A stretch of DNA of 46,664 bases from Deltaproteobacteria bacterium (GCA_016874735.1 VGTI01000034.1:1-46664), one strand, 5' to 3'. Counted from the first letter of the stretch, positions 1-15,330 are shown. Program-made: numbers and translations. The notes: generated by a model from the sequence alone, not told the origin.

Positions 1-281
1 GCATTTGCGCGTGTAAAATCGCAGCATATAGCACCTTAGAAGATTGGCTGCAGAATCATTCCGCGGCACTCGCACTAGCATGCAACAACGCTAGTGGGGG
101 TGCTACATGCGCTGGTGTACTAGGTACGGTCTTTTCGTTATCACCCGCCTCAGGTTATTTGGACTATCAGTAATCTATCATCAAATTCGTCTCTATATCC
201 TGGTCTTAACCCCCGCGATTACAAAATCCTCTAAAGCCCCTACCGCCATGCTCCGATACCTCTCCCAGGGTGGAGGTGGCT
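1..281. other. Left flank and leader of array unit 1
   Basis: No gene is supported here. From about position 130 the sequence resembles the segment that precedes A genes elsewhere in the array (for example the ATTCGTCTCTATATCCTG stretch near 186, then GCTCCGATACC and the ribosome binding site). Bases 1-130 show no match that I can see to a C gene, so either the array starts near 130 or the preceding C gene has been lost. Confidence 0.5.
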
Positions 282-671
282 ATGGATCCTCGGCGCGAAA
301 AGTTTGAAAAGCAATCAAGAGACCTTCATGCTTTTTTCAAGCTAGTGGGTAAGGTGTGGATTTACGAAGAGCTTAAATTTTTGGACTTAGAGCCTCAGAT
401 GATGACTGGTGAGTTTCGTTCGTGCCATGCTCAGTCTTTACTCGACTTCTGTAGGTCAAATCCTGAGTACCATATTGTAAGCGGTTTTCAACTGAAGGTG
501 TTTAACAAGTTTGTCCCTAATGCACGTATCTACTACTTAGCTGACGGCGATTCGGACCCGGATTTGTATTTTGAATTAGGGACGCGGTTAGGTGTCCAGG
601 AGACCTTGCAGGTGGGACACGCAATGTTTGCGACCAAATTTAGCAAGATCAAACGCAGTAATGATGCCTAG
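282..671 (+). CDS. Array protein A, copy 1 (unknown function)
   Basis: First of twelve copies of an unrecognised family of about 129 aa. Family hallmarks visible here are an N-terminal LHAFFK segment, WIYEELKFLDLEP (about residues 26-38), GEF, a DFC segment, a YHIVS strand, NKFVPNA and YYLADGDSDP. It has no signal peptide or membrane segment, so it should be cytosolic. ATG 282 is chosen over an in-frame GTG at 270 because GGAGG lies 5 nt before it. The last 84 bp are shared, on the opposite strand, with B copy 1. The protein is acidic to neutral and rich in aromatic residues. I do not know its function. Confidence 0.8.
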   Translation: MDPRREKFEKQSRDLHAFFKLVGKVWIYEELKFLDLEPQMMTGEFRSCHAQSLLDFCRSNPEYHIVSGFQLKVFNKFVPNARIYYLADGDSDPDLYFELGTRLGVQETLQVGHAMFATKFSKIKRSNDA

Positions 672-950
672 CGCCTTAGCGTGGGACTCACTGAATTCAT
701 CCGTCAATGAGGTATTGTGGAGATACAGCATATCTGTCGCTGAAATAAATTCCAGGGAATCCTCCCCGTATTTTCGCCAATAGACCAGCTGCAGGTATGA
801 GAATACCGCAGCTGAGTCAAAATGGTCTGCTTGCGTAAAGCCTGAAACTATTTCATTTACTTTTTCGGAACCTCGTAGGTCGTATTGGTAAATTACTTTA
901 TTTGACGAGGTATAACCGACCAGTGATGGGACAAGACTTGGGACTTCCAT
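588..950 (-). CDS. Array protein B, copy 1 (unknown function)
   Basis: Unrecognised family of about 116 aa; this copy has 120 aa. Conserved blocks are an N-terminal LVGYTSSNK, IYQYD, then DHFDSAAVFSYLQLVYWRKY (about residues 48-67) and a C-terminal AFDLAKFGRKHCVSHL. This copy carries a 12-bp in-frame duplication giving VPSLVPSL near the N-terminus. Start at 950 matches the start of all other copies; a longer reading to 1040 adds only non-conserved residues. The 3' 84 bp run antisense to the end of A copy 1. No membrane segment is seen. Confidence 0.78.
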   Translation of the reverse strand: MEVPSLVPSLVGYTSSNKVIYQYDLRGSEKVNEIVSGFTQADHFDSAAVFSYLQLVYWRKYGEDSLEFISATDMLYLHNTSLTDEFSESHAKALGIITAFDLAKFGRKHCVSHLQGLLDT

Positions 951-1023
951 TTTTGGTAGGGCCTTTTGGTGACTCGGTGACACAAACCAGGTAGTGATTA
1001 ACAGAAAATATCGGCTGGTGCGA

Positions 1024-1053
1024 GTGACATAGGTTCTCAAATTGATATGTCAC
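1024..1053. promoter_or_regulatory. B-C intergenic inverted repeat, unit 1
   Basis: Perfect GTGACAT at 1024-1030 and ATGTCAC at 1047-1053, separated by 16 nt. It lies 74 bp upstream of the B start. The same element recurs in nearly all units, so it is probably an operator for a dimeric protein or another functional site. Confidence 0.6.
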
Positions 1054-1054
1054 G

Positions 1055-1121
1055 CCATGAACAACGCATTGGCGCACTTGAGGTTACGGTCATGGATCAT
1101 GTGGGTTAGCATGGGCGTGCA
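1055..1121 (+). pseudogene. Remnant of C gene, unit 1
   Basis: Only the last part of the C family survives here: the segment equivalent to HRIGALEVTVRDHVGEHERS can be followed with substitutions and an early stop. It starts directly after the inverted repeat, so nearly the whole coiled-coil gene was lost by an internal deletion. Confidence 0.55.
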
Positions 1122-1277
1122 GGACATACAGGCATTTTACGGATCTTTGCCAGTTTGAATCTGTCGCAAATTAAGCGTGACCTAGTATTCAAATCGCTGG
1201 CTTAGTCGCCAAGATGCAGGCATCGCCTAAAGGCCTCGGCACCATGGTCCGATATCACTCCGAGGGTGGAGGTGGGT

Positions 1278-1667
1278 ATGGAGGGGAATCGCAAGTTGTT
1301 TCGTGAGTCATCCCGAAACCTTCATGCTTTTTTCAAGCGGGCGGGTAAGGTTTGGATTTACGATGAGCTTAGGTTTTTGGACTTAGAGCCAGAAATGCTG
1401 ACGGGCGAGTTTGGATCAGATAGGGTCCAAACATTGATTGATTTCTGTAATGCCAATCCCGAATACCACATCATCAGCGGTCTTGATGGCAAGGTGTTTA
1501 ATAAATACATACCAGATGCCTCAATCTATTACCTGGCGGATAAGGATAACGATCCAAGTCTCATGGTGGATTTGTGGGGGGCGCTAAGTGGCGAGGAGTT
1601 CTTGCAGATAGGGTACGCAATGGTTACGCCCATAGTTGGCAAGATCAAATGCGGTAACGATACCTAG
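1278..1667 (+). CDS. Array protein A, copy 2
   Basis: Intact 129-aa member of the A family starting MEGNRKLFRESSRNLHAFFK, with WIYDELRFLDLEPEMLTGEF, the DFCNANPEYHIISG block and IYYLADKDNDP, where most copies have ADGD. ATG 1278 follows GGAGG at the standard 5-nt spacing. Its leader (about 1190-1265) differs from that of copies 1, 3, 7 and 11 and is closer to that of copy 6, which points to more than one leader lineage in the array. The 3' 84 bp overlap B copy 2. Confidence 0.8.
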   Translation: MEGNRKLFRESSRNLHAFFKRAGKVWIYDELRFLDLEPEMLTGEFGSDRVQTLIDFCNANPEYHIISGLDGKVFNKYIPDASIYYLADKDNDPSLMVDLWGALSGEEFLQIGYAMVTPIVGKIKCGNDT

Positions 1668-1934
1668 ACGTTTCGCATGTTGAATACGGAACTTTCCGTT
1701 AATTAAAAGTCCATGAGACGTTAACATGTCTGTTGCGTCCTGAAAATCCTGAGAAACATCACCATACTTGCGCCAGAAGATTAATTGCAAAAAAGAAAAA
1801 ACGGCGATCGCGTCAAAATGATCCTCATGGCTAAATCCTTTAGTCACTTTACTGAGATTCTCGGAATCACTAATATTGCACATATAAATACACTTCGCCG
1901 ATGACGTGTACCCGACTATTGAAGGGATATTCAT
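1584..1934 (-). CDS. Array protein B, copy 2
   Basis: Intact 116-aa B-family protein: NIPSIVGYTSSAK at the N-terminus, EDHFDAIAVFSFLQLIFWRKYG in the middle and IVTAFDLANYGRNHCVPYL at the C-terminus. Two cysteines near the N-terminus replace the usual YQYD context (IYMCN). A GAGGA lies 6 nt before the ATG. The end overlaps A copy 2 tail to tail. Confidence 0.8.
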   Translation of the reverse strand: MNIPSIVGYTSSAKCIYMCNISDSENLSKVTKGFSHEDHFDAIAVFSFLQLIFWRKYGDVSQDFQDATDMLTSHGLLINGKFRIQHAKRLGIVTAFDLANYGRNHCVPYLQELLAT

Positions 1935-1998
1935 GGGGATTCCTCTGTGTCAAGTTTTTAGTCTTTCGTGTGTTACCATCATCGTTTTGAGCCCGCTA

Positions 1999-2028
1999 GT
2001 GACATGAGCGGCACTTGTACGATGTCAC
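1999..2028. promoter_or_regulatory. B-C intergenic inverted repeat, unit 2
   Basis: Perfect GTGACAT (1999-2005) and ATGTCAC (2022-2028) with a 16-nt spacer whose sequence differs from unit 1. Keeping the arms and spacing while the spacer changes suggests the arms are what is selected. It sits 65 bp upstream of the B start. Confidence 0.6.
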
Positions 2029-2039
2029 TTAGCCATTGA

Positions 2040-2474
2040 TTGGATCCGTCAGTCAGAGACTATATCGGTGGCGTGGTCCCACTCAATCTCAGGGATCCCA
2101 GCGTGCAGCTAAACGAGACTAACCTCAAGTCGACAATTAAATCCGTCGTCAACGAAGCCATCGACGAGCATCCCACCATCCAGCGGATGGGCTCAGAGAT
2201 TGGTGAGCTAAAGAGTGGTGTTGCTGAATTTAAGATCCACACTAGATCAAACACGTAAGCCATCAACCAATTAATCATTGAGCAGCAACGTCAGGGTGTG
2301 ATGTTGGAGGACATGCGCTCGGATTTGAAGAAATTGATTAAGTTCGTCATCCCATCAATGATAGGCGAGGAGCAGTATGACCGGATGGAGCGCCGCGTGG
2401 AGAATCATGACCACCGCATTGGCGCGCTAGAGGTTACGGTCAGGGATCATGTGGGTGAGCATGAGCGGTCGTAA
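2040..2474 (+). pseudogene. Coiled-coil protein C, copy 1, interrupted by a nonsense codon
   Basis: The frame reads DPSVQLNETNLKSTIK, then VVNEAIDEHPTIQRMGSEIG, and stops at TAA 2256-2258, where an intact copy (at 3384) has CAA. It then continues in the same frame through EEQYDRMERRVENHDHRIG to a proper end at 2474, so a single C-to-T change explains the break. This copy has almost none of the 21-bp heptad repeats. The start is unclear; TTG 2040 is only the first in-frame candidate. Confidence 0.65.
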
Positions 2475-2499
2475 AGGCGCTGGGTGCTGCCACACATAA

Positions 2500-2628
2500 A
2501 ACTGTTTAAACTATCAGTAATATGCCGCCAATTTCGTCTCTATATCCTGATCCTAGCTCCCGAGATTATAAAATCCCCTAAAGCTCCTACCGCCATGCTC
2601 CGATACCTCTCCCAGGGTGGAGGTGGCT
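2500..2628 (+). promoter_or_regulatory. Conserved leader upstream of A genes (unit 3 as example)
   Basis: About 100-130 bp between the C stop and the A start is conserved across units, most strongly CTATATCCTGATC, a GATTA-containing stretch, CCTAAAGC or CCTCAAG, then CGCC(A)-GCTCCGATACC and GGTGGAGG before the ATG. Equivalent leaders end at 281, 1277, 3993, 5815, 6908, 8152, 9350, 10975, 12577, 14230 and 14826. The CTCC/CCTC run just before the SD can pair with GGAG/GAGG, and unit 4 has a perfect CCTCC/GGAGG pair. It probably holds the A promoter, and the mRNA leader could mask the SD. Confidence 0.45.
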
Positions 2629-3012
2629 ATGGATCCTCGGCACAAAATATTTGATCAGACTTCTGAAGAGCTGCACGCTTTTTTCAAGCGAGTTGGCCGA
2701 ATTTGGATTTATGAAGAGCTCAAGTTTTTAGGGCTGGAGCCACAGATGATTTCGGGCGAATTTTGGTCGGACGGTGTTTCTAATTTGACCGAGTTTTGTA
2801 AGGCAAATCCCGGCTATCACATCATTAGTAGTACAGAAGGTAAGGTGTTCAATAAGTTCATTCCATCTTCACACTTCTACTTTTTAGCTGACGGAGACGA
2901 TAATCCAGATCTCATGATTGATTTGTGGGCACACCTAAATATCCAAGATTTTTTGGAGATAAGGCAAGCAAAGGCAACGTCCATACTTGGCAAGATCAAT
3001 GGCGGTGATTAA
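2629..3012 (+). CDS. Array protein A, copy 3
   Basis: Intact 127-aa A protein, two codons shorter at the C-terminus than most copies (ends KINGGD). It has LKFLGLEPQMISGEFWSDGV in place of the common LDLEP...MMTGEF, and FYFLADGDDNP for the ADGD motif. It is almost identical at DNA level to copy 7, 5.5 kb away, and its first third also matches copy 11, so these arose by recent duplication or gene conversion. The overlap with B copy 3 is 78 bp. Confidence 0.8.
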   Translation: MDPRHKIFDQTSEELHAFFKRVGRIWIYEELKFLGLEPQMISGEFWSDGVSNLTEFCKANPGYHIISSTEGKVFNKFIPSSHFYFLADGDDNPDLMIDLWAHLNIQDFLEIRQAKATSILGKINGGD

Positions 3013-3285
3013 ACCTAGTTTCTTTGCGTGTGTCTTGAAGAATTCAGCCGGCACCAGTCGATTGTGACAAAGGAGCATGTTTGTCGCACTCTTTAGGTCA
3101 AGAGAATCCTCACCGTACTTACGCCAGTAGACAAATTCCAGGTAGGAAAAGACGGCAATCGAATCAGAGTGATCCTCGTCGCTAAAATCCGAGATTTTAT
3201 GACTGAGGTCTTCAGGGTTGCTGGTGTCGTATTGGTAAATGAGTTTTTTTGATGATGTATAGCCGACTAGTGAGGGGATGACCAT
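2935..3285 (-). CDS. Array protein B, copy 3
   Basis: Intact 116-aa B protein (VIPSLVGYTSSKKLIYQYD at the N-terminus). The central motif reads EDHSDSIAVFSYLEFVYWRK, with Ser replacing the usual Phe after DH. The C-terminal block is ITAIDLAKYGRCLCLPYL. A purine-rich AAGGAAGGAG precedes the ATG. It serves as the intact reference for frameshifted copy 7. Confidence 0.8.
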   Translation of the reverse strand: MVIPSLVGYTSSKKLIYQYDTSNPEDLSHKISDFSDEDHSDSIAVFSYLEFVYWRKYGEDSLDLKSATNMLLCHNRLVPAEFFKTHAKKLGLITAIDLAKYGRCLCLPYLQKILDI

Positions 3286-3350
3286 GCTCCTTCCTTTCTT
3301 GGTATTCCGAAGCTGTAAGGGTTTTTAGCACCGGCTTGTTCGGGTTACGA

Positions 3351-3380
3351 ATGATATTGGTACTTCAACTAATATGTCAC
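3351..3380. promoter_or_regulatory. B-C intergenic inverted repeat, unit 3
   Basis: The right arm ATGTCAC (3374-3380) is perfect and the left arm ATGATAT matches five of seven bases, at the standard 16-nt spacing and 66 bp upstream of the B start. The same variant occurs in unit 7. Confidence 0.5.
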
Positions 3381-3836: not shown

Positions 3837-3993
3837 CGTGGACGTCCTTTTGCGCAGTTTAGCAAGTTTGGGCTATTGGCAAGTTGTTGATTATTTCTTG
3901 TACATAACTTGGTCTTATTTCCCGCGATTACAAATACGCCTCAAGACTCTGCTGCCCATCGCCGATACCTCCCCCAAGGTGGAGGGAACGGGT

Positions 3994-4383
3994 ATGGATC
4001 CGCGGGTCAAAATGTTTCGTGATACCTCAGACGAGCTTTATTATTTTCTTAAGCGAGCTGGTCGCGTTTGGATCTACGATGAGCTAAAGTTCTTGGACCT
4101 GGAGCCGGACACCCTCACGGGTGAATTCTGGCAGGGTAAGGAGCAGGTGCTGACAGATTTTTGCACTGCAAACCCCGAGTACCATGTTATTAGTTGTCAT
4201 GTTCCACATGTTTACAATAAGTTTGTCCCTGATGCGTGTATTTACTACCTTGCCGACGGTGACGCTGATCCAAATTTGATGTTTGACTTCGAGACACGTC
4301 TCAACCTAGATGAGCTCTTTCAGATAGGACACGGTGTGTTTGCGCCCGTACTTAGCAAGATCAAAAACCGTGACGATTCCTAG
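3994..4383 (+). CDS. Array protein A, copy 4
   Basis: Intact 129-aa A protein of a subtype shared with copy 8: MDPRVKMFRDTSDELYYFLK, then EPDTLTGEFWQGKEQVLTDF and a C-terminus ending SKIKNRDDS. A much longer in-frame extension upstream (to 3700) is not supported, because it runs through the end of the preceding C gene. ATG 3994 follows GGTGGAGGG. The leader contains CCTCC and GGAGG that pair perfectly. It overlaps B copy 4 by 78 bp. Confidence 0.8.
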   Translation: MDPRVKMFRDTSDELYYFLKRAGRVWIYDELKFLDLEPDTLTGEFWQGKEQVLTDFCTANPEYHVISCHVPHVYNKFVPDACIYYLADGDADPNLMFDFETRLNLDELFQIGHGVFAPVLSKIKNRDDS

Positions 4384-4650
4384 CAGTGCTTTTTGGCTAT
4401 CCCGAAACTCAACAGTGGTGTGACGAGTATAAAGTAGTAACATCTTAAGGCCGTCGCGGAATTCATGCGATTCCTCGCCATACTTTCGCAAGTATACGAG
4501 TTGCAAATGTGTGAAAACAGCTATGGCATCAAAATAATCTTCGCTTGAGAAATTTGGCGCCACCGCAGTCTCGTCCCTCAAATTGTTAAGATTATACTGG
4601 TAAATTTCTTTGCGGGTGCGCGTATAGCCTACGAGTGTTGGAACATCCAT
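4306..4650 (-). CDS. Array protein B, copy 4
   Basis: A 114-aa B protein of the subtype that accompanies A copies 4 and 8: VPTLVGYTRTRKEIYQYN, EDYFDAIAVFTHLQLVYLRK and a shorter C-terminus ending YLKELI. A and B of units 4 and 8 carry matching subtype changes (A with LDEL, B with TRT and THLQ), so the pair has co-diverged or moved together. GGAGG lies 11 nt before the ATG. Confidence 0.8.
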   Translation of the reverse strand: MDVPTLVGYTRTRKEIYQYNLNNLRDETAVAPNFSSEDYFDAIAVFTHLQLVYLRKYGEESHEFRDGLKMLLLYTRHTTVEFRDSQKALLGIVTVFDLAKYGRKHTVSYLKELI

Positions 4651-4723
4651 CCTAAGTTAATCCTCCAGCTTAATTAAAGGTCCAGACCTGCAAGGTATTA
4701 GCTCCTGCTGGGGGATGTTGCGA

Positions 4724-4753
4724 GTGACATATGCTCTTGCATCAAGATGTCAT
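4724..4753. promoter_or_regulatory. B-C intergenic inverted repeat, unit 4
   Basis: GTGACAT (4724-4730), 16-nt spacer, ATGTCAT (4747-4753): thirteen of fourteen arm bases match the consensus. It lies 74 bp upstream of the B start. Confidence 0.58.
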
Positions 4754-4973: not shown

Positions 4974-5498
4974 GTGGTGCCCCACACCACGGCGTTAACA
5001 CGGTCCCTCACGGGGGTCCACGTGGTCCCACTTAATCTCAAGGATCCCAGCGTGCAGCTAGACGAAACCACCCTCAAGGTCACAATCAAAACTGTCGTCA
5101 ACGAAGCTATCGACGAGCATCCCACGATCCAGCGGATGGGCTCAGAGATTGGTGAGCTGAAGAGCGACGTATCGGAGCTGAAGAGCGATGTCGCGGAGCT
5201 TAAGACCGATGTCGCGGAGCTTAAGACCGATGTCAGGGACCTTAACAGCAGGTTCGAAATTCACGCCAGGACTACCAACTACTCCATCAACAAGCTCCAT
5301 GATAACGTCCACAAATTGAGTCTGGATATGGAAGAGATCAAGTCAGGTCTCAACAAAGTGATTGAGATCGTCATGCCTGCAAAGATACGTGAGGAGCTGT
5401 ATGACCGGATGGAGCGCCGCGTGGAGAATCATGACCACCGGATTGGCGCACTTGAGGTCAAGGTCAGGGATCATGTGGGCGAGCATGGCCGATCGTAG
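4974..5498 (+). CDS. Coiled-coil protein C, copy 3
   Basis: Intact 174-aa C protein. Layout: N-terminal MVPHTTALTRS, DPSVQLDETTLKVTIK, VVNEAIDEHPTIQRMGSEIG, four 21-bp repeats (5154-5237) giving ELKSDVS/ELKTDVA heptads with Leu and Val at the a/d positions, then RDLNSRFEIHARTTNYSINK, an SLDMEEIKSGLNKVIEIV helix and the conserved EELYDRMERRVENHDHRIG end. GTG 4974 corresponds to the start position used in copies 7, 8 and 9, but no SD is visible. Upstream of it the proline-rich sequence is open in another frame as well. Confidence 0.7.
   Translation: MVPHTTALTRSLTGVHVVPLNLKDPSVQLDETTLKVTIKTVVNEAIDEHPTIQRMGSEIGELKSDVSELKSDVAELKTDVAELKTDVRDLNSRFEIHARTTNYSINKLHDNVHKLSLDMEEIKSGLNKVIEIVMPAKIREELYDRMERRVENHDHRIGALEVKVRDHVGEHGRS
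5154..5237 (+). repeat. Four 21-bp tandem repeats within C copy 3
   Basis: Units of the type GAGCTTAAGACCGATGTCGCG repeat four times with few changes. Each adds exactly one coiled-coil heptad, so copy-number change keeps the reading frame. Confidence 0.85.
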
Positions 5499-5815
5499 GG
5501 CTGTTCATTCTCGGTACTTCTCAGTACGTTCAGTTTTGACCCTGCTCTAGCTCGCTTTGCCCACCGGATAACATCAAGAATCTTTTCTTTAAACCACGGC
5601 CGCCAACTTAACATGTCGGTTGCCGCGTTTATTCGCGAAGTAGCCAAGCTTCAGGCGTACACGCACTCTGCGATAGGTTTTAGGCACTTGCCTACCTTCT
5701 AATACAAAGAATACATCAATTCGCCCGTTGAACCGACCACTTGCATCTATGTTTTATCAGCGAACCTCAAGGCATGCCTGTCAATGACCGATAAAGAGTT
5801 GGTATGGAGGTGGCT
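5499..5815. other. Atypical spacer between C copy 3 and A copy 5
   Basis: Only the last 60 bp (CCTCAAGGC...CCGATAAAG) resemble an A leader. The rest is not shared with other units. On the - strand it contains two short protein-like open stretches in different frames, described separately. Confidence 0.4.
5510..5754 (-). pseudogene. Possible gene remnant of unknown origin
   Basis: On the - strand, 5754 to about 5595 reads a basic, protein-like stretch (NGRIDVFFVLEG, PKTYRRVRVRLKLGYFANKR, GNRHVKLAAVV) that then stops. An overlapping frame continues with RPWFKEKILDVIRWAKRARA down to about 5510. Together they look like one broken gene with a single frameshift, perhaps a mobile-element relic, but I cannot name a family. 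It could also be chance. Confidence 0.25.
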
Positions 5816-6205
5816 ATGGGCGCGAGGCGACAGATATTCGATGTCACTGCAGACGAACTGCAGCAGTTTTTCAAGCAGGTCGGCAAGGTGTGGATCTATG
5901 AGGAATTGAAATTCCTTGATTTGGAGCCCGACATGATGACAGGTGAATTTTGGGGCGATAAAGTGCAGTCGCTCATCGATTTTTGCGAAGAAAATCCCAA
6001 ATATCACGTGATCAGCTGCAGTGGCCGTAAAATTTATAATAAGTATGTACCCGACGCATTTAGTTATCATTTAGCCGATGGCAATTCGGACCCAGGGTTG
6101 TTTTTTGACTTTGAATCTCGACTAAGTATCCAAGAGCTCCTGCAAATAGGCTACACAATGTTTGCGCCCGTAATTGGAAAGATCAATAGCGGTGACAATC
6201 GCTAA
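5816..6205 (+). CDS. Array protein A, copy 5
   Basis: Intact 129-aa A protein: MGARRQIFDVTADELQQFFK, WIYEELKFLDLEPDMMTGEF, DFCEENPKYHVISC and YHLADGNSDP. ATG 5816 is preferred to ATG 5804 by analogy with every other copy, since the GGAGG between them is the SD. The leader is the most divergent in the array and carries foreign-looking sequence upstream, so its expression may differ. It overlaps B copy 5 by 84 bp. Confidence 0.8.
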   Translation: MGARRQIFDVTADELQQFFKQVGKVWIYEELKFLDLEPDMMTGEFWGDKVQSLIDFCEENPKYHVISCSGRKIYNKYVPDAFSYHLADGNSDPGLFFDFESRLSIQELLQIGYTMFAPVIGKINSGDNR

Positions 6206-6472
6206 TGTGGCTTTATTTTCGCTAAGAAATTCCTTGGGCAAATTCTGCTCAAATATTTTGAGCATCACCTGACAGCTTATGTAATCCCTGCATTCGTCGC
6301 CGTATCGCCGCCAGTATACCAACTGTAGATACGAAAATACTGCAAAAGCGTCAAAGTGATCCTCGGGTGAGAAATGCGACACCAATTTCTCGAGAGTATC
6401 AATTTCTATGGTGTGATACTGATAAATTGGCTTACTCGACGAAGTATATCCAACTAGAGAGTGGGTGATCAT
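6122..6472 (-). CDS. Array protein B, copy 5
   Basis: Intact 116-aa B protein: ITHSLVGYTSSSKPIYQYH, EDHFDAFAVFSYLQLVYWRR and VTAIDLSNYGRKHCVAYL. The start at 6472 aligns with all other copies; an upstream extension to 6640 would run through the inverted repeat and C remnant and is not conserved. Unlike other copies it has no obvious SD, so translation may be weak. Confidence 0.78.
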   Translation of the reverse strand: MITHSLVGYTSSSKPIYQYHTIEIDTLEKLVSHFSPEDHFDAFAVFSYLQLVYWRRYGDECRDYISCQVMLKIFEQNLPKEFLSENKATLAIVTAIDLSNYGRKHCVAYLQELLDT

Positions 6473-6547
6473 GGCTATCGTAGTCCGGATTAGGTTAATG
6501 AATTCGTTGCGCACAAGAGTGCTACCATTGCCGCTTGAGCATTGCGA

Positions 6548-6554
6548 GTGACAT
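6548..6554. promoter_or_regulatory. Left arm of inverted repeat, unit 5 (right arm lost)
   Basis: GTGACAT is perfect and 76 bp upstream of the B start. The sequence then runs directly into the interior of a C gene, so a deletion removed the right arm and the C 5' half. Confidence 0.45.
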
Positions 6555-6564: not shown

Positions 6565-6756
6565 CAGCAGCGTCAGGGTTTGATGCTGGAGGATATGCGC
6601 TCTGATATGTAGAAATTGTTTGAGATTGTAATGCCATCAAAGGTGCGCGAGTAGCAGTATTACGAGATGGAACTGCTTGTAGAGAATCATCACCGCCGGA
6701 CCCGCGCGGTTGAGGTTACGGTCAGGGATCGTGTGGGTGAGCAGGAGCGATCGTAG
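6565..6756 (+). pseudogene. Remnant of C gene, unit 5
   Basis: The last 190 bp of the C family can be followed from the QQRQG helix to GEQERS and stop, but TAG codons replace sense codons near 6608 and 6651 and many residues differ. The 5' half is missing. It is more decayed than the other remnants, so probably old. Confidence 0.6.
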
Positions 6757-7998: not shown

Positions 7999-8152
7999 AG
8001 GCGCTGGGTTCTGCCGCACATAAAACCGTTTAAACTATCAGTAATCTTCAGCCAATTTCGTCTCCATATCCTGATCCTAGCTACCGGGATTATGATGTCT
8101 CCTAAAGCCCCTACCGCCACGCGCCGATACCTATCCCAGGGTGGAGGTGGCT

Positions 8153-8536: not shown

Positions 8537-8810
8537 ACCTAGTTTCTTTGCGTGTGTCTTGAAGAATTCAGCCGGCACCAGTCGATTGTGAGAAAAGAGC
8601 ATGTTTGTCGCACTCTTTAGGTCAAGAGAATCCTCACCGTACTTACGCCAGTAGACAAATTCCAGGTAGGAAAAGACGGCAATCGAATCAAAGTGATCCT
8701 CGTCGCTAAAATCCGCGATTTTATGACTGAGCTCTTCAGGGTTGCTGGTGTCGTATTGGTAAATGAGTTTTTTGTGATGATGTATAGCCGACTAGTGATG
8801 GAACGAGCAT
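8459..8810 (-). pseudogene. Array protein B, copy 7, 1-nt frameshift
   Basis: Nearly identical to B copy 3 but 352 nt long instead of 351. Near 8771-8776 the T-run reads TTTTTTGT where copy 3 has seven T, adding one base after the LVPSLVGYTSS segment. The remaining frame to 8459 is otherwise intact. A slip at a homopolymer is the simplest cause; it could be phase variation, decay or a sequencing error. Confidence 0.7.
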
Positions 8811-8956: not shown

Positions 8957-9191
8957 CACACGGTCCTACTTAACCTCAAGGATTCCAGCGTGCAGCTAGA
9001 CGAGAATACCGAACGCTGCGGTGGTGGAGTACATCCGATCTGATATCAACAAAGTGATTGAGATCGTCATGCCATCAAAGATACGTGAGGAGCAGTATGA
9101 CCGGATGGAGCGCCGCGTGGACAACCATGACCATCGCATTGGCGCACTTGAGGTTACGGTCAGGGTTCATGTGGGTGAGCATGAGCGGTCG
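8957..9191 (+). pseudogene. Remnant of C gene, unit 7
   Basis: It starts like C (LKDSSVQLDENT equivalent), loses the central coiled-coil through a deletion near 9010-9025, and continues with RSDINKVIEIVMPSKIREEQ and the RMERRVDNHDHRIG end. The usual stop after GEHERS is changed (TCGAAG), so the open frame runs on to 9248. The internal deletion removes the heptads. Confidence 0.6.
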
Positions 9192-9350
9192 AAGATTGGA
9201 CGTCCTTTAGCGCAGGTTAGCAAGTTTGGGCTATTGGCAAGTTGTTGATTATTTCGTGTACATAATTTGGTCTTATTTCCCGCGATTACAAAGGCGCCTC
9301 AAGACTCCGCTGCCCATCGCCGATACCTCCCCCAAGTGGAGGGAACGGGT

Positions 9351-9740
9351 ATGGATCCGCGGGTCAAAATGTTTCGTGAAAATTCAGACGATTTTTTTTA
9401 TTTTCTAAAGCGAGCTGGTCGCGTTTGGATTTACGATGAGCTAAAGTTCTTGGACCTTGAGCCGGATACCCTGACGGGTGAATTCTGGCAGGGTAAAGAG
9501 CAGTTGCTTACCGATTTCTGTGCGGCCAACCCAGAATATCATGTCATTAGCTTCCACTTGCCTCTTGTTTACAATAGGTTTGTCGCTAATGGGAGCCATT
9601 ACTACCTAGCGGACGGTGATGCGGATCCAGATTTGGTATTTGACTTCGAAACTAGGCTTAGTCTAGACGAGCTCTTTAAGATAGGAAACAGTATGTTTGC
9701 GCCCGTACTTAGCAAGATCAAGAACCGTAACGATGCCTAG
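9351..9740 (+). CDS. Array protein A, copy 8
   Basis: Intact 129-aa A protein of the copy-4 subtype (MDPRVKMFRENSDDFFYFLK, EPDTLTGEFWQGKEQLLTDF, YHVISFHLPLVYNRFVANG). The leader is also almost the same as unit 4, including the TTGGGCTATTGGCAAG stretch upstream. ATG 9351 follows GGAGGG. Any longer upstream reading passes through leader DNA and is not conserved. It overlaps B copy 8 by 78 bp. Confidence 0.8.
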   Translation: MDPRVKMFRENSDDFFYFLKRAGRVWIYDELKFLDLEPDTLTGEFWQGKEQLLTDFCAANPEYHVISFHLPLVYNRFVANGSHYYLADGDADPDLVFDFETRLSLDELFKIGNSMFAPVLSKIKNRNDA

Positions 9741-10010
9741 CATATCTTTTTGGCTCGCACGAAAATGCGTCGTAGTTCGAGCCGTATGAAAGGTCAACAT
9801 TTTGAGACCGTCGCGGTACTCCTGAGAATCCTCGCCATACCTACGCAAGTAGACTATTTGTAAATGTGTGAAAACAGCTACGGCATCAAAACAGTCTTCA
9901 GGTGTGAAATCTGGTGCGACCGTAGGCTCGTCTCTCAAAGGGTCCAAACTATACTGATGAATTTCCTTTTGGGTGCGCGTATAGCCAACAAGCGTCGAAA
10001 CTTCCCTCAT
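9663..10010 (-). CDS. Array protein B, copy 8
   Basis: Intact 115-aa B protein of the copy-4 subtype: STLVGYTRTQKEIHQYS, EDCFDAVAVFTHLQIVYLRR (Cys replaces His or Tyr in the EDHFD motif) and VTVLDLAKYGRKHTVSYL. AAGGA lies 7 nt before the ATG. Confidence 0.8.
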   Translation of the reverse strand: MREVSTLVGYTRTQKEIHQYSLDPLRDEPTVAPDFTPEDCFDAVAVFTHLQIVYLRRYGEDSQEYRDGLKMLTFHTARTTTHFRASQKDMLGIVTVLDLAKYGRKHTVSYLKELV

Positions 10011-10083
10011 GAGTAAATCCTTCTGCTGAACTTAGGACTCAGACCTGCAGAAACGGACTAGCACTTGCTTGGGTGTGTTGCGA

Positions 10084-10113
10084 GCGACATAGTCTCTGGC
10101 ATCAAGATGTCAT
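10084..10113. promoter_or_regulatory. B-C intergenic inverted repeat, unit 8
   Basis: GCGACAT-N16-ATGTCAT, 74 bp upstream of the B start. The spacer is close to that of unit 4. Confidence 0.55.
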
Positions 10114-10329: not shown

Positions 10330-10821
10330 ATGTTACCCCACACCACGGCGTTAACACGGTCCCACAAGGTCCCACTTAATCTCAAGGATCCCAGCGTGCA
10401 ACTAGACGCAACCACCCTCAAGGTCACAATCAAAACAGTCGTCAACGAAGCTATCGACGAGCACCCCACCATCCAGCGGATGGGATCAGAGATTGGTGAG
10501 CTGAAGAGCGACGTATCGGTGCTGAAGAGCGACGTATCGGAGCTGAAGACCGATGTCAGAGACCTTAACAGTAGGTTCGAAGTTCATGCCAGGACTACCA
10601 ACTACTCCATCAACAAGCTCCACGATTCCGTCCACAAAATGAGTGTGGATATGGAAGAGATCAAGTCAGGTCTCAACAAAGTGATTGAGATCGTTATGCC
10701 TTCAAAGATACGTGAGGAGCAGTATGACCGGATGGAGCGCCGCGTGGAGAATCATGACCACCGCATTGGTGCGCTTGAGGTCAAGATCAGGGATCGTGTG
10801 GGTGGGCATGAGCGGTCGTAG
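10330..10821 (+). CDS. Coiled-coil protein C, copy 7
   Basis: Intact 163-aa C protein: MLPHTTALTRS, DPSVQLDATTLKVTIK, VVNEAIDEHPTIQRMGSEIG, three heptad-coding 21-bp repeats (10498-10560), RDLNSRFEVHARTTNYSINK, a VDMEEIKSGLNKVIEIV helix and the conserved REEQYDRMERRVENHDHRIG end. ATG 10330 sits at the position shared with copies 3, 8 and 9. Another frame upstream (10188 to about 10379) reads a proline-rich MSAPTPASPIPPAPNQCYV peptide that ends just inside this gene. Confidence 0.72.
   Translation: MLPHTTALTRSHKVPLNLKDPSVQLDATTLKVTIKTVVNEAIDEHPTIQRMGSEIGELKSDVSVLKSDVSELKTDVRDLNSRFEVHARTTNYSINKLHDSVHKMSVDMEEIKSGLNKVIEIVMPSKIREEQYDRMERRVENHDHRIGALEVKIRDRVGGHERS
10498..10560 (+). repeat. Three 21-bp tandem repeats within C copy 7
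   Basis: Three units of the GAGCTGAAGAGCGACGTATCG type, one heptad each; the last has the GACCGATGTC variant. Confidence 0.82.
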
Positions 10822-10975
10822 GGTTTCTTCGTAATCACTGGCGTCAACTCGCTTGTGCTAAAGACAATCTGTCACCAATTTCGTCTCTTTAGCCTGGTCT
10901 TAGCTCCCGTGATTCCAGGAGTCCCTCAAGCCCCTGCCGTAATTCGCCGATACCCTTCTAAGGGTGGAGGTGGGT

Positions 10976-11365
10976 ATGGATCCGCAACGCCAGACATTCG
11001 ATCAAGTTGCGAGTGAGCTTAACGCTTTTTTTAAGCGCATAGGTAAAATTTGGCTTCCCTATGAGCTGGCGTTTCTCGATCTAGATCAGCACATGATTGG
11101 AGGTGAATTTCTGGCTAATGCAGTGCCGGTTCTGGTTGAATTCTGTCAGTCCAATCCGGGTTATCATATAGTTAGCTTTAAAGATGGCGTGTTCTACAAT
11201 AAACTTGTGGAAGGGGCGATTACGTACCATTTGGCTGACGGTGATGCCGATGCTAATCTCGGTTTTGAATTTGGATCGCGACTAAGTGATCGAGATTTCT
11301 TTGAGGTAGGGTACACAAAGTTTGCGACCGTACTGCGAGTGATCAAAGGCAGTGACGATACCTAG
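10976..11365 (+). CDS. Array protein A, copy 9 (divergent)
   Basis: Intact 129 aa but the most diverged A copy in the array proper: MDPQRQTFDQVASELNAFFK, IWLPYELAFLDLDQHMIGGE, EFCQSNPGYHIVSF, YHLADGDADANLGF and a C-terminus ending LRVIKGSDDT. The positions that stay fixed (the AFFKRIGKIW segment, GEF, YHIVS, ADGDAD) therefore mark likely structural or functional residues. Just upstream an ACCCTT/AAGGGT inverted repeat abuts the GGAGG. It overlaps B copy 9 by 84 bp. Confidence 0.8.
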   Translation: MDPQRQTFDQVASELNAFFKRIGKIWLPYELAFLDLDQHMIGGEFLANAVPVLVEFCQSNPGYHIVSFKDGVFYNKLVEGAITYHLADGDADANLGFEFGSRLSDRDFFEVGYTKFATVLRVIKGSDDT

Positions 11366-11632
11366 AGCGATCGCGTAGTGAGATAGAGTATCCGGCTTCA
11401 TCTTGGATCGATGTTTAGCCAGCATGGCGGTAGCATCGATATAATCATGCGAGTTCTCTCCATACTTACGCCAATAAGCAAATTGTAAGTAGGAAAATAC
11501 AGCTGCCGCGTCGAAGTGATCTTCTTGAGTGAAGTCTTTTAATTTGTCATCAAGATGCCCCATTACGCTTGTGTCGTACTGGTATATCGCCTTTCTTGAT
11601 GCTGTGTACCCGACTAGTGATGGCACGCGCAT
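11282..11632 (-). CDS. Array protein B, copy 9
   Basis: Intact 116-aa B protein: MRVPSLVGYTASRKAIYQYD, EDHFDAAAVFSYLQFAYWRK and VTAFDHSQYGRKLCVPYL. Its N-terminus and the 200 bp upstream are nearly identical to those of copy 10 while the C-terminal halves differ, a mosaic boundary typical of conversion. GAGG lies 7 nt before the ATG. Confidence 0.8.
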   Translation of the reverse strand: MRVPSLVGYTASRKAIYQYDTSVMGHLDDKLKDFTQEDHFDAAAVFSYLQFAYWRKYGENSHDYIDATAMLAKHRSKMKPDTLSHYAIALGIVTAFDHSQYGRKLCVPYLKEISIT

Positions 11633-11695
11633 AATATCGCCTCGGAGATATTTCTGGTTGCTGACTAGTATGATCAGCTCATTTCGCTAATGCGA

Positions 11696-11725
11696 GTGAC
11701 ATAGGAAGAATTCCTTTGATGTCCG
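11696..11725. promoter_or_regulatory. B-C intergenic inverted repeat, unit 9
   Basis: GTGACAT-N16-ATGTCCG, 64 bp upstream of the B start. The spacer AGGAAGAATTCCTTTG itself contains AGGAA/TTCCT arms. Confidence 0.55.
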
Positions 11726-11907: not shown

Positions 11908-12421
11908 ATGTTACCCCACACCACGGCATTGCCATGGTCCCACACGGTTCCAGCCAATCTCAAGGATCCCAGCGTGCAGCTAGACGAAACCACCCTCAAG
12001 GTCACAATCAAAACAGTCGTCAAAGAAGCTATCGACGAGCATCCCACCATCCAGCGGATGGGATCAGAGATTGGTGAGCTTAAGAGCGATGTTGCGGTGC
12101 TTAAGACCGATGTCGCGGTGCTGAAGACCGATGTCGCGGTGCTGAAGACCGATGTCAGAGATCTTAACAGTAGGTTCGAAGTTCATGCCAGGACTACCAA
12201 CTACTCCATCAACAAGCTCCACGATTCCTTCCACAAAATGAGTGTGGACATGGAAGAGATCAAGTCAGGTCTCAACAAAGTGATTGAGATCGTCATGCCT
12301 TCAAAGATACCGCGAGGAGCGGTATGACCGGATGGAGCGCCGCGTGGACAACCATGACCATCGCATTGGCGCACTTGAGGTTACGGTCAGGGATCATATT
12401 GGTGAGCATGAGCGGTCGTAG
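11908..12421 (+). pseudogene. Coiled-coil protein C, copy 8, 1-nt frameshift near the end
   Basis: Frame from ATG 11908 (MLPHTTALPWS) runs through DPSVQLDETTLKVTIK, four 21-bp repeats (12076-12159), RDLNSRFEVHARTTNYSINK and VIEIVMPSKI. An extra base near 12310 (ATACCGCGAGG against ATACGTGAGG in other copies) then closes the frame at 12327, 30 codons early. The lost end, ERRVDNHDHRIG to HERS, can still be read in another frame to 12421. The coiled-coil core is intact, so a shortened protein might still be made. Confidence 0.65.
12076..12159 (+). repeat. Four 21-bp tandem repeats within C copy 8
   Basis: Four units; the last three begin GTG rather than GAG, so the heptads read VLKTDVA instead of ELKTDVA. 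Sharing of the variant by neighbouring units indicates expansion within this copy. Confidence 0.82.
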
Positions 12422-12577
12422 GGTTATTGGTTTTCGTTGACGGTTAATTAGATAATTTGGACTTATTAAAATTTGCAGGGAATTTTTCCTCTTTAGTCAC
12501 GCCCTAGGTTCCGTGATTCAGATGTCACCTCAAGACCTAACAGCCAGGCGCCGATACCCCTTAGGGTGGAGGCGGGT

Positions 12578-12967
12578 ATGGATGCTCGGCGCAAAAAATT
12601 TGAAGACTCGTCGCGAGAGCTGCAAGCATTCTTCAAGCGGGTCGGCAAAATTTGGATATACGAAGAGCTTCAGTTTTTGGACTTAGAGCCTCAGATGATG
12701 ACCGGCGAATTTTGGCCGGGAAGTGTGCACATGTTGATAACCTTTTGCGAAGCAAATCCAGGTTATCACATCATTAGTAACTCGGACGGTAAGGTATTCA
12801 ATAAATTCATGCCTAAGGCAGACGTCTATTATTTGGCTGATGGTGATACCGACCCAGATCTAATGATTAATTTATGGGCAGGCCTAAAAGTCCAAGATTT
12901 TTTGGAGATAAGGCACACAATGTTGACGCCCATATTTGGCAAGGTCGATGGTGGTGACGATCCTTAG
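12578..12967 (+). CDS. Array protein A, copy 10
   Basis: Intact 129-aa A protein: MDARRKKFEDSSRELQAFFK, WIYEELQFLDLEPQMMTGEF, FCEANPGYHIISN and VYYLADGDTDP. This copy aligns without gaps to the diverged homologue at 16,076-16,459, from the AFFKRVG segment through ADGDTDP. Upstream, CCCCTTAGGG abuts the SD. It overlaps B copy 10 by 84 bp. Confidence 0.82.
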   Translation: MDARRKKFEDSSRELQAFFKRVGKIWIYEELQFLDLEPQMMTGEFWPGSVHMLITFCEANPGYHIISNSDGKVFNKFMPKADVYYLADGDTDPDLMINLWAGLKVQDFLEIRHTMLTPIFGKVDGGDDP

Positions 12968-13234
12968 TTTCTTAGAGTGTACCTCCTTGAATTCCGCCGA
13001 AACCAAGCGAAAGTGAGCGGAAAGCATATTTGAGGCAGTCATGAAGTCTAAAGAGTCTTCGCCATACTTTCGCCAGTATACTAACTGTAAGTAGGAAAAA
13101 ACAGCTACTGCGTCGAAATGTTCTTCCTGGCTAAAGCGTGTAATTCGCTCACGAAGCTCATCGGGATTGCTGGTCTCGTACTGGTAAATGGCTTTATTTG
13201 ATGCTGTGTACCCGACTAGTGATGGAACGCGCAT
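12884..13234 (-). CDS. Array protein B, copy 10
   Basis: Intact 116-aa B protein: MRVPSLVGYTASNKAIYQYE, EEHFDAVAVFSYLQLVYWRK and VTTIDLAKYGRQHCVPYL. GAGG sits 7 nt before the ATG. Its 5' region matches copy 9 almost exactly. Confidence 0.8.
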   Translation of the reverse strand: MRVPSLVGYTASNKAIYQYETSNPDELRERITRFSQEEHFDAVAVFSYLQLVYWRKYGEDSLDFMTASNMLSAHFRLVSAEFKEVHSKKLRIVTTIDLAKYGRQHCVPYLQKILDF

Positions 13235-13297
13235 AATATCGCCTCGGAGAAATTTCTGATTGCCGACTAGTATGATCAGCTCATTTCGCTAATGCGA

Positions 13298-13327
13298 GTG
13301 ACATAGGAAGAATTCCTTTGATGTCCG
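13298..13327. promoter_or_regulatory. B-C intergenic inverted repeat, unit 10
   Basis: GTGACAT-N16-ATGTCCG with the same spacer as unit 9, 64 bp upstream of the B start; part of the near-identical tract shared by units 9 and 10. Confidence 0.55.
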
Positions 13328-13509
13328 TGCTCGGAAAAAAATGCGGAGAGAATAATTTGTGATAGTCACTCTCGCTGCTTTGCATCGTGGTTGTTCAAGT
13401 TAAAACAAACTTTAGCCTCCTGCTGGCGATGCCCCAATCCTTCCGGCTACTTACCAGATGTCCGCTCCCACCCCCTCCTCTCCCATTCCACCCACCCCCA
13501 ACCAGTGCT

Positions 13510-14076
13510 ATGGTACCCCACGCCACGGCGTTAACACGGTCCCTCACGGGGGCCCACAAGGTCCCACTTAATCTCAAGGATCCCAGCGTGCAGCTAGACG
13601 AAACCACCCTCAAGGTCACAATCAAAACTGTCGTCAACGAAGCTATCGACGAGCATCCCACCATCCAGCGTATGGGCTCAGAGATTGGTGAGCTTAAGAC
13701 CGATGTCGCGGTGTTGAAGACCGATGTTGCGGAGCTGAAGACCGATGTTGCGGAGCTGAAGACCGATGTCGCGGAGCTGAAGACCGATGTCGCGGAGCTG
13801 AAGACCGATGTAAAAGACCTTAACAGCAGGTTCGAAGTTCATGCCAGTACTACCAACTACTCCATCAACCAGCTTCATCATTCCTTCCACAAAATGAGTG
13901 TGACTATGGAAGAGATCAAAGCTAGCATCGCCAAAGTGATTGAGATCGTCTCGCCGTCAAAGTTGAGGGAGGAGCAGTATGACCGTATGGAGCTCAAGGT
14001 TGAGACTCATGACCACCGCAATGGCGCGCTAGTGGTCACGGTCAGGGATCATGTGGTAGAGCATGAGCGGTCGTAA
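13510..14076 (+). CDS. Coiled-coil protein C, copy 9 (longest)
   Basis: Intact 188 aa from ATG 13510 (MVPHATALTRSLTG). An earlier in-frame GTG at 13387 would add a proline-rich stretch. It carries DPSVQLDETTLKVTIK, VVNEAIDEHPTIQRMGSEIG and six consecutive heptad-coding 21-bp repeats (13690-13815), the largest number in the array, then KDLNSRFEVHASTTNYSINQ, a VTMEEIKASIAKVIEIV helix and a more diverged end (REEQYDRMELKVETHDHRNG). The extra heptads lengthen the predicted coiled-coil rod by about 2-3 turns of superhelix-forming sequence relative to copy 7. No SD is visible. Confidence 0.7.
   Translation: MVPHATALTRSLTGAHKVPLNLKDPSVQLDETTLKVTIKTVVNEAIDEHPTIQRMGSEIGELKTDVAVLKTDVAELKTDVAELKTDVAELKTDVAELKTDVKDLNSRFEVHASTTNYSINQLHHSFHKMSVTMEEIKASIAKVIEIVSPSKLREEQYDRMELKVETHDHRNGALVVTVRDHVVEHERS
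13690..13815 (+). repeat. Six 21-bp tandem repeats within C copy 9
   Basis: Six in-frame units; units 4 and 5 are identical (GAGCTGAAGACCGATGTCGC then G), which points to very recent slippage or unequal exchange. Confidence 0.87.
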
Positions 14077-14230
14077 AGTCGCTGGGTTCTGCCGCACATA
14101 AAACTGTTTAAACTATCAGTAATCTGCCGCCAATTTCGTCTCTATATCCTGATCATAGCTCCCGGGATTATGATGTCTCCTAAAGCCCCTACCGCCACGC
14201 GCCGATACCTATCCCAGGGTGGAGGTGGCT

Positions 14231-14506
14231 ATGGATCCTCGGCACAAAATATTTGTGCAGAATTCCAGAGATTTGCACGCTTTTTTCAAGCGGGTTGGCC
14301 GAATTTGGATTTATGAGGAGCTTAAGTTTTTAGGGCTAGAGCCACAGATGATTTCGGGCGAATTTTGGTTCGAAAGCGTCACTCAGTGCGTGGTTTTTTC
14401 GCCGCTGTCTAATTCCAGGGCGATGCCGCGGCCCCACACGGTTCTACTTAATCTCCGGGATTCTAGTGTGCAGCTATACGAGAATGACCAGGGCTGTGGT
14501 GATTGA
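14231..14506 (+). pseudogene. Chimeric A copy 11 fused to a C remnant
   Basis: The first 46 residues match A copies 3 and 7 (MDPRHKIFVQNSRDLHAFFK to MISGEFW). At about 14,370-14,378 the sequence jumps into the right arm of the B-C inverted repeat (CGTCACTCAGTGCG) and reads on into the start of a C gene (LRDSSVQLYEN) before stopping. One deletion therefore removed the rest of A, all of B and the left arm of the repeat. The 91-aa open frame is a deletion product, probably not functional. Confidence 0.7.
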
Positions 14507-14672
14507 TTACAGCCGATAAGTCATGATGAAAGTGCCTTAGATCGTCATGCCTTCAAAAATAGGTGAGGAGCAGTATGACCGGATGGAGCGCCGCGTGGAG
14601 AATCATGACCACCGGGTTGGCGCACTTGATGTCAAGATCAGGGATCATGTGGGTGAGCATGAGCGGTCGTAG
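14437..14672 (+). pseudogene. Remnant of C gene, unit 11
   Basis: The start of C (LNLRDSSVQL equivalent) is followed by a deletion of the heptad region and a damaged centre. The 3' part is clean: IVMPSKIGEEQYDRMERR and the HDHRVGALDV to GEHERS end, with TAG at 14,670-14,672. Confidence 0.6.
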
Positions 14673-14826
14673 GGTTGCCTCGTAATCACTAGCGTCAAGT
14701 TGTTTGCACGATCAGTAATCTCTCATCAAATTCGTCTTTATATCCTGGTCTTAACCTCAGCGATTGTAAAATCCCCTCAAGCCCCGCCCGCCATGCTCCG
14801 ATACCCCCGACAGGATGGAGGTGGGT

Positions 14827-15216
14827 ATGGATCCGCGTCGCAAAAGCTTCGAAGAATCGTCTATAGCACTTCATGCCTTTTTCAAGCGTGTTGGTAAGGT
14901 GTGGAAATACGATGAGCTAAGATTTTTAGACCTAGATCCGCACATGCTGACTGGGCAATTTTGGTGTGACAGAGTGCAATCTTTGATCGATTTCTGTGAG
15001 TCAAATAAAGAGTACCACATCATAAGCAGCGTCGATGGCAAGGTGTATAATAAATTCGTTCCTAAGGCTTGCCACTACTACCTAGCTGATGGGGATGCGG
15101 ATCCTAAATTGGTGTTTGAATTATGGTCTGGGCTAGATGTCCAGGATGTGTTGCAGGTAGGTTACGCAGTGTTTGCGCCCATAGTAGGCACGATCAAAAG
15201 CGGTAATGATACCTAG
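14827..15216 (+). CDS. Array protein A, copy 12 (last unit)
   Basis: Intact 129-aa A protein: MDPRRKSFEESSIALHAFFK, VWKYDELRFLDLDPHMLTGQ, DFCESNKEYHIISS and YYLADGDADP. Gln replaces Glu in the usual GEF motif. ATG 14,827 follows GGAGG. Its B partner is cut short by the array edge, yet the 84-bp coding overlap at the 3' end is still present and readable on both strands. Confidence 0.8.
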   Translation: MDPRRKSFEESSIALHAFFKRVGKVWKYDELRFLDLDPHMLTGQFWCDRVQSLIDFCESNKEYHIISSVDGKVYNKFVPKACHYYLADGDADPKLVFELWSGLDVQDVLQVGYAVFAPIVGTIKSGNDT

Positions 15217-15330
15217 TTGCAGTTCATATTTTTGACGAAATTCAGGGGTAGTTAAACCGGATGGCGCGCCGTGGGGTGAACCAACAAGTTGTTTCGCTCC
15301 CCACCCTGAAAACATAAAAGTTTTTTTCAA
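15133..15330 (-). pseudogene. Truncated B copy 12 at the right array edge
   Basis: Only the C-terminal 40 residues belong to the B family (TTPEFRQKYELQLGIITAF, DRAYYGRKHCVTYL). Upstream of about 15,255 the frame continues into unrelated sequence (MKKTFMFSGWGAKQLVG) for 25 residues. The B N-terminal two thirds and the unit's C gene are missing, so the junction marks where the array ends. Confidence 0.65.

Follow-up and report, generated by a model that had tools for sequence, protein, structure and literature searches.

A tandem array of convergent, overlapping gene pairs with a FliA-type promoter on one partner in a freshwater deltaproteobacterium

Type II toxin-antitoxin systems comprise two small linked genes that diverge together, occur in many dispersed copies and lose one partner more than the other. 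In the type I systems bsrG/SR4 and txpA/RatA of Bacillus, the two transcripts converge and overlap at their 3' ends, and the antitoxin is an RNA. Homogeneous polyimmunity loci hold tandem, diverged paralogues of a small protein, plausibly as a repertoire; their genes all point the same way, separated by small gaps, with no toxin genes in between (Zhang et al., 2012; PMC3482391). In E. coli, the Rpn proteins act against phage and are toxic; they have an intragenic antitoxin, RpnS, which is the C-terminal part of RpnL translated on its own (PMC10327210). In Bdellovibrio, mapped attack-phase promoters carry TTAAG-N16-CCGATA in 92 of 140 cases and have been assigned to FliA (sigma28), which in that account directs the expression of attack-phase genes, including many that are not flagellar (Karunker et al., 2013; PMC3627812). 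FliA control of promoters of this type has been demonstrated with reporters in E. coli (PMC5430801). Here we analyse a 46,664-nucleotide stretch of DNA from a deltaproteobacterium (GCA_016874735.1, VGTI01000034.1:1-46664; hereafter the window), which opens with an array of two small genes, A and B, facing each other and overlapping at their ends. The locus displays a fixed anatomy and overlap register, purifying selection on both proteins, a FliA-class promoter at A, a separate upstream element at B, and asymmetric decay. As judged from sequence, A/B is a genus-specific, multicopy family of convergent, tail-to-tail overlapping pairs, and the array in the window is a tandem amplification of it.

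The window is one entire contig (C34) of the source genome, a 97% complete assembly of 4.65 Mb in 166 contigs from a freshwater bacterium. A encodes about 130 amino acids and B about 116, and in the array the two genes overlap by 78 or 84 nucleotides. A first-pass annotation of the window had described a twelve-unit array of an A/B/C three-gene cassette, with A on the plus strand convergent with B on the minus strand, and B divergent from C. Both orientations are seen, and the twelve A starts that it gave, from 282 to 14827, are exact. The unit count needs qualification: there are twelve A loci, but only ten A and nine B genes are intact, and twelve is a minimum because the contig begins within the array. 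The repeating unit is the A/B pair; the place given to C was overstated, since its full frame is present at only about four positions. Strong divergence of A and B with retention of motifs (YHIVS...YYLADGD in A, EDHFDA in B), also noted at first pass, was borne out: identity within the array is about 50-65%, far above chance, and profile E-values inside one genome go down to 1e-56 for A and 1e-46 for B. Among the defective copies, A6 is frameshifted near 6955, the A11 match ends after about 57 residues, B7 is frameshifted, B11 is absent, and B12 retains only the end that overlaps A. DNA identity between units is about 76-91% over patches, and the most similar unit pairs differ from part to part, as expected from tandem duplication and exchange. 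The A and B genes of the window are listed here.

282..671, plus strand: A1, intact
588..950, minus strand: B1, intact
1278..1667, plus strand: A2, intact
1584..1934, minus strand: B2, intact
2629..3012, plus strand: A3, intact
2935..3285, minus strand: B3, intact
3994..4383, plus strand: A4, intact
4306..4650, minus strand: B4, intact
5816..6205, plus strand: A5, intact
6122..6472, minus strand: B5, intact
6909..7297, plus strand: A6, frameshifted, -10 of its promoter mutated
7214..7564, minus strand: B6, intact, partner A6 broken
8153..8536, plus strand: A7, intact
8459..8810, minus strand: B7, frameshifted near its N-terminus
9351..9740, plus strand: A8, intact
9663..10010, minus strand: B8, intact
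10976..11365, plus strand: A9, intact
11282..11632, minus strand: B9, intact
12578..12967, plus strand: A10, intact, AlphaFold2 mean pLDDT 84
12884..13234, minus strand: B10, intact, AlphaFold2 mean pLDDT 93
14231..14401, plus strand: A11, truncated, continuing into a C remnant, without B
14827..15216, plus strand: A12, intact
15133..15255, minus strand: B12, remnant reaching hardly beyond the A12 overlap
16076..16459, minus strand: solo diverged A without B, outside the array

The overlap is conserved in register. Among 69 intact pairs of the genus its length is 66, 69, 72, 75, 78, 84 or 93 nucleotides, against 6, 30 or 33 in the order's other families. Every overlap between intact genes is divisible by three, which we attribute to a single ancestral overlap whose register cannot change; the convergent layout, we argue, probably predates the genus. 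For sequence beyond the overlap, dN/dS in pairs with dS below 1 is about 0.2 for A and 0.3 for B, and the medians within the array, from few comparable pairs, are 0.14 and 0.24. These values, well below 1 in both genes, denote purifying selection on proteins, as first supposed, and show that the array is not satellite DNA. Distances among A proteins correlate with those among their B partners at 0.84, against a permutation maximum of 0.13.

Decay of the pair is lopsided. Away from contig ends, both genes are intact at 62 loci, A is intact with B broken or gone at 32, and the reverse holds at 6. A broken B is mostly shortened to the end that overlaps A, which survives because it is protected by the A coding sequence. 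A pair of orthologous loci (L091/L201) illustrates this: contig C53 of species G003 has the intact pair, whereas C210 of G001 shows a clean loss of the non-overlapping part of B only.

Profile searches of the source genome (G000) returned 30 A places and 29 B matches. Beyond the array, the convergent pair stands in four tandem copies on contig C126, in three on C98, and as one or two copies on each of C61, C76, C32, C102 and C121. All five other species of the genus carry the pair, with 8, 15, 18, 4 and 48 A matches in G001 to G005, respectively. Three species, the source included, have the array as an orthologous locus: its counterparts on C69 of G005 and C3 of G002 adjoin the same lipoprotein-like and giant genes at the same end, with different numbers of units. 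At the level of the order A is sparse (G014, G041, G010 and G038); B converges with A in G014 and G041, and G038 retains a B remnant at the end of A. The only named records with A are metagenome-assembled genomes from lakes (Lac Pavin, Loclat, Umea) labelled 'Proteobacteria bacterium'. A search of viral contigs with A found no relatives, so A is not a phage gene within that viral collection. As a guess from FliA usage, genome sizes and degree of kinship, the host may belong to Bdellovibrionota/Oligoflexia. The first-pass annotation would have been contradicted by dN/dS near 1 in all three families together with a lack of homologues elsewhere; homologues and arrays do exist elsewhere, and that refutation does not apply.

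A promoter motif lies upstream of A. T[ACT]AAG-N16-CCGATA precedes 11 of the 12 array A genes, always with a 16-nucleotide spacer and ending 21-26 nucleotides before the start, and it occurs nowhere else in the 46.7 kb on either strand. The exception is the frameshifted A6, whose -10 reads CCGACA. With at most one mismatch, the motif is found before 75 of 122 A genes (61%), before 4 of 284 control open reading frames (1.4%) and before none of 83 B genes. Exact sites number 109 in the source genome, against 3 for the reversed pattern, and the array holds about a tenth of them; they typically lie 20-60 nucleotides upstream of a start codon, often that of a lipoprotein-like gene. FliA is encoded in the genome (TIGR02479, 286.7 bits, cut-off 189.6), as are eight Flagellin_N matches. 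As far as sequence goes, the pair anatomy and the FliA class of the A promoter are almost certain, and FliA very likely uses these sites, which are the following.

232..258, plus strand: FliA-type promoter of A1
1228..1254, plus strand: FliA-type promoter of A2
2579..2605, plus strand: FliA-type promoter of A3
3941..3967, plus strand: FliA-type promoter of A4
5767..5793, plus strand: FliA-type promoter of A5
8103..8129, plus strand: FliA-type promoter of A7
9299..9325, plus strand: FliA-type promoter of A8
10926..10952, plus strand: FliA-type promoter of A9
12530..12556, plus strand: FliA-type promoter of A10
14181..14207, plus strand: FliA-type promoter of A11
14777..14803, plus strand: FliA-type promoter of A12

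The 109 sites outline a large FliA-type regulon in the source genome (L221-L250 and other loci), similar to the attack-phase programme of Bdellovibrio. About half of the genes inspected are lipoprotein-like, and others encode FHA domains.

B is preceded by a different conserved element, GACAT-N17-ATGTC(G/A)YTCG, mostly 62-103 nucleotides before its start, with 17 exact sites in the genome and none for the reversed pattern. At a distance of 76 nucleotides the same element also precedes three PDDEXK_2 nuclease genes, two on C76 and one on C102, and it lies upstream of one other gene; one regulator may thus act on both B and the PDDEXK_2 genes. We take PDDEXK_2 to be the Pfam family to which the Rpn proteins of E. 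coli belong. Alternatively, the conserved sequence may mark the start of a short leader peptide (ATG-TCN-YTN). The PDDEXK_2 genes that share the element at the same distance lie at L035:2190-3239, L035:8856-9821 and L037:1581-2300. Within the array the element was located at these positions.

1021..1052, minus strand: GACAT-N17-ATGTC element of B1
1996..2027, minus strand: GACAT-N17-ATGTC element of B2
4721..4752, minus strand: GACAT-N17-ATGTC element of B4
6545..6554, minus strand: ATGTCACTCG half of the element, B5
10081..10112, minus strand: GACAT-N17-ATGTC element of B8
11693..11724, minus strand: upstream element of B9
13295..13326, minus strand: upstream element of B10

One role proposed at first pass was a regulated surface-variation module. 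The FliA-type promoter on A and the different element on B strongly support the regulated half of that proposal, in a form not anticipated there. Nothing points to the surface half: both proteins are small and predicted to be compact, and no export signal was seen by eye (no signal-peptide program was run).

As had been thought at first pass, neither protein matches a named family: A and B have no match in Pfam, NCBIfam, PADLOC or the sequences and folds of the PDB, and the sole A match in PADLOC, of one A protein to Cas8b, is non-significant (E 0.026). AlphaFold2 yields a confident, mostly helical model of B with a short N-terminal hairpin (B10, pLDDT 93) and a fairly confident alpha+beta model of A (A10, pLDDT 84), poor at the C-terminus, which corresponds to the overlap region. 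Foldseek returned nothing significant for A and B against the PDB or for B against viral models. The best hits of the all-helical B model included the Tai4 immunity proteins 4j30 and 4jur, and we rejected B as a Tai4 protein: their E-values of 0.76 and 2.1 are non-significant, and the better hit has a probability of 0.47 and a TM score of about 0.4. Conserved polar residues are H64, N75 and a GDxDP stretch in A, and K14, D38, D41, T94 and D97 in B. The median pI is 5.1 for A, which is acidic, and 6.5 for B, which is near neutral.

How does the pair compare with the systems described above? It has the small linked genes, linked divergence, dispersed copies and preferential loss of one partner seen in type II toxin-antitoxin systems, but all of its intact pairs overlap convergently where type II genes are co-directional and co-transcribed, it has two separate upstream elements, and it matches no known toxin or antitoxin family or fold; toxicity of B is a prediction. 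Its transcripts, like those of type I systems, would converge and overlap at their 3' ends, yet each strand encodes a conserved protein, with dN/dS below 1 in both cases. The tandem diverged paralogues recall polyimmunity loci, except that each A alternates with a convergent B and has its own promoter. With Rpn/RpnS it has in common overlapping coding and, between B and the PDDEXK_2 genes, the upstream element and its distance; unlike RpnL and RpnS, A and B are unrelated and lie on opposite strands (PMC10327210). The A promoter has the -35/-10 consensus and 16-nucleotide spacer of the Bdellovibrio FliA regulon, but the A/B families do not figure in the part of its published description drawn on here (PMC3627812). 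About a tenth of the exact sites fall within one tandem array in our genome, also unlike that regulon, and FliA dependence is predicted from the motif. Integron cassette arrays combine attC sites and an integrase with cassettes that are unrelated to one another, whereas A/B units are homologous throughout. We know of no named system with a conserved, in-register, tail-to-tail coding overlap under different upstream control. By layout and family match, A/B appears to fall outside the toxin-antitoxin, polyimmunity and catalogued defence families tested; given proteins without recognised relatives and a layout without named precedent, we consider it new in kind.

We tentatively favour the interpretation that A/B is a diversified conflict-type pair, in which A is an attack-phase, antidote-like protein, B is costly, and the overlap reinforces their opposite expression. 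RNA polymerase carrying FliA, the factor of the motile attack-phase programme in Bdellovibrio, would transcribe A, and B would be read from its own element. The two mRNAs would share about 70-90 nucleotides of antisense, and with polymerases converging on each other, expression of one partner would lower that of the other; A would consequently dominate during the motile phase, and B at other times. Within the cell the pair may act as a toxin/antidote-like conflict module in which A can safely outlast B, and copies may diversify by tandem duplication and by swapping halves, giving a repertoire of related specificities. The assignment of B as the costly partner and A as the antidote is suggested by the preferential survival of A, its acidity, and the element that B has in common with nuclease-toxin genes. 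We infer FliA activity on the A promoters, antisense interference, and toxicity of B with neutralisation by A, as well as a predatory or attack-phase lifestyle of the host. A bolder and rather unlikely extension is that a predator-like lineage carries a genome-wide complement of bidirectional two-protein switches, numbering up to about 50. Each would oppose an attack-phase (FliA) gene to a second gene on the opposite strand, the two being locked to each other through the conserved antisense coding overlap, and together they would make a diversified antidote/toxin repertoire toggled by the life cycle and directed at self versus prey or kin.

Several observations weigh against a conflict-type pair. 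Known type II toxin-antitoxin genes are co-directional and A/B are not. An exact FliA motif is missing from the solo A at 16076 and from the A genes at the level of the order, and the exact motif was not found at the flagellin loci checked as a positive control, a weak control because several of the stretches checked were flagellin coding sequence and not upstream DNA. In only 37 of 68 pairs do A and B point to the same closest relative, which is looser than strict toxin/antidote matching, so halves have sometimes been exchanged; some near-identical A genes are paired with clearly diverged B genes. The difference in pI is weak evidence. The counts of 32 and 6 are not independent, as copies descend from one another, and they could equally mean that A is useful and B an accessory that can be done without. 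In metagenome-assembled genomes such as these, errors of assembly could account for some of the frameshifts. The main rival, which we rate as somewhat unlikely, is a non-toxic life-cycle pair: A would be an attack-phase effector or regulator (of prey handling or motility control, for example) and B a growth-phase counter-regulator, with the many copies addressing different targets or prey and the overlap only enforcing exclusivity. The distinct upstream controls of A and B, the retention of the convergent antisense layout across the order and the preferential keeping of A all suit such a pair, as do the other FliA-type sites before many lipoprotein-like and signalling genes, as in the Bdellovibrio attack-phase regulon. 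The B element that is common to nuclease genes of a toxic family and the excess of defence and mobile neighbours over comparison loci fit conflict better, and a copy number of 4-48, varying strongly among species, also speaks against a non-toxic pair.

A/B might also be an anti-phage or anti-mobile-element defence, with small modules in variable islands and the array as a repertoire against different phages, which we regard as distinctly unlikely. Dispersed pairs neighbour type I and IV restriction genes, AbiEi/AbiEii, PDC-S01 (DUF4143) ATPases, and genes of ISL3 and TnpB-like type; on C61 the neighbours form a set that resembles Zorya. Among 73 A/B neighbours, 63 PADLOC families are matched, against 6 among 59 comparison proteins, an enrichment that is only indicative because the comparison loci were centred on FliA sites and flagellar genes. 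Strong copy-number variation would also suit defence. However, A and B are themselves unmatched in PADLOC, ordinary metabolic genes are among the neighbours, several pairs adjoin housekeeping genes in synteny between species, and a flagellar or attack-phase promoter would be unexpected. Persistence as a selfish multicopy element, mainly by duplication (in tandem, or by transposition in trans through PDDEXK_2 or REP-type systems) with addiction as the protein function, seems quite improbable. Copies are dispersed, a 600-bp segment with a solo A occurs at two unrelated sites in G005, the repeat GGGGTCAGGCACT occurs 25 times near A/B loci of that species, and PDDEXK_2 genes adjoin some pairs. Common ends or target duplications were not found for most copies, though, and the repeat is almost absent from the other five species; several loci have orthologues in other species, where the flanks are conserved too, and dN/dS is well below 1 in both genes. 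PDDEXK_2 as a general mobiliser of A/B was rejected, since the association is limited to few loci. Overlapping antisense frames can appear conserved through constraint from the opposite strand, and B could on that ground be a frame shadowing A, or the array a product of assembly. An artefact of either kind is hardly credible and in essence refuted: about three-quarters of B extends beyond A and is conserved in that portion, with dN/dS of about 0.3 and a confident predicted fold; B accompanies A in further families of this order; DNA differences of 10-50% between units are too large for mis-assembly; and arrays occur in independently assembled genomes.

Whichever of these accounts is correct, two families without recognised relatives make up a multigene family with 4-48 copies in each genome of the genus, and a promoter links one partner to a Bdellovibrio-type attack-phase programme. 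A toxin/antidote pair, if real, would represent an architecture new to conflict systems and would then be best ranked among toxin-antitoxin systems; a life-cycle switch would be a new way of enforcing exclusive expression of two proteins. The roughly 70 intact pairs also serve as natural replicates in which to examine the limits that an overlapping antisense gene sets on gene loss.

The third gene, C, encodes a coiled-coil protein with 21-nucleotide (seven-residue heptad) repeats. At about four of 11 places in the array C has a full open frame; two copies are broken and four are short 3' pieces. Elsewhere in the genus C has few copies, mostly away from A/B pairs, so the conserved unit is A plus B; of the three-gene co-occurrence proposed at first pass, the pair and its arrays recur and C is mostly absent. 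C is probably of secondary importance, amplified together with A/B in the window array.

2076..2471, plus strand: C, broken by an in-frame TAA
3438..3836, plus strand: C, intact
5025..5498, plus strand: C, intact, with 21-nucleotide heptad repeats
6655..6753, plus strand: C, 3' remnant
7813..7995, plus strand: C, 3' remnant
9021..9191, plus strand: C, 3' remnant
10369..10821, plus strand: C, intact
11947..12418, plus strand: C, frameshifted
13561..14076, plus strand: C, intact, longest heptad array
14541..14669, plus strand: C, 3' remnant

The number of 21-nucleotide repeats varies among C genes (5154-5245, 10498-10553, 12078-12156 and 13690-13811), which gives a coiled coil of variable length.

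Some single loci outside the window are worth recording. The 600-bp solo-A segments of G005 (L085:3545-4138 and L103:4867-5466) are 96% identical; one end carries the repeat named above, which occurs 0-1 times in other species. On C61 (L031), an A-A-B locus lies near a Zorya-resembling set (MotA-like and OmpA-domain genes and a helicase), an Mrr endonuclease and hsdM. An A-like stretch (L097:4146-4616, E 1e-9) lies inside a protein of G077, the start of which presumably resembles MvaI/BcnI-type restriction endonucleases; this is a hint to the ancestry of A or a chance match.

At the edge of the array, a protein with a DnaA/Hda-like ATPase domain is encoded at 15391-15960 on the minus strand (PF00308, E 1e-11); in the two orthologous arrays the space at this position is too small for that gene. 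Further along the window, a small lipoprotein-like gene (16911-17663, plus strand) precedes a giant gene (17641-31737, plus strand) for a 4698-residue, tail-fibre-like repeat protein, with repeats such as GGTGxxS..FPxSGxVVT..LSNKTL.

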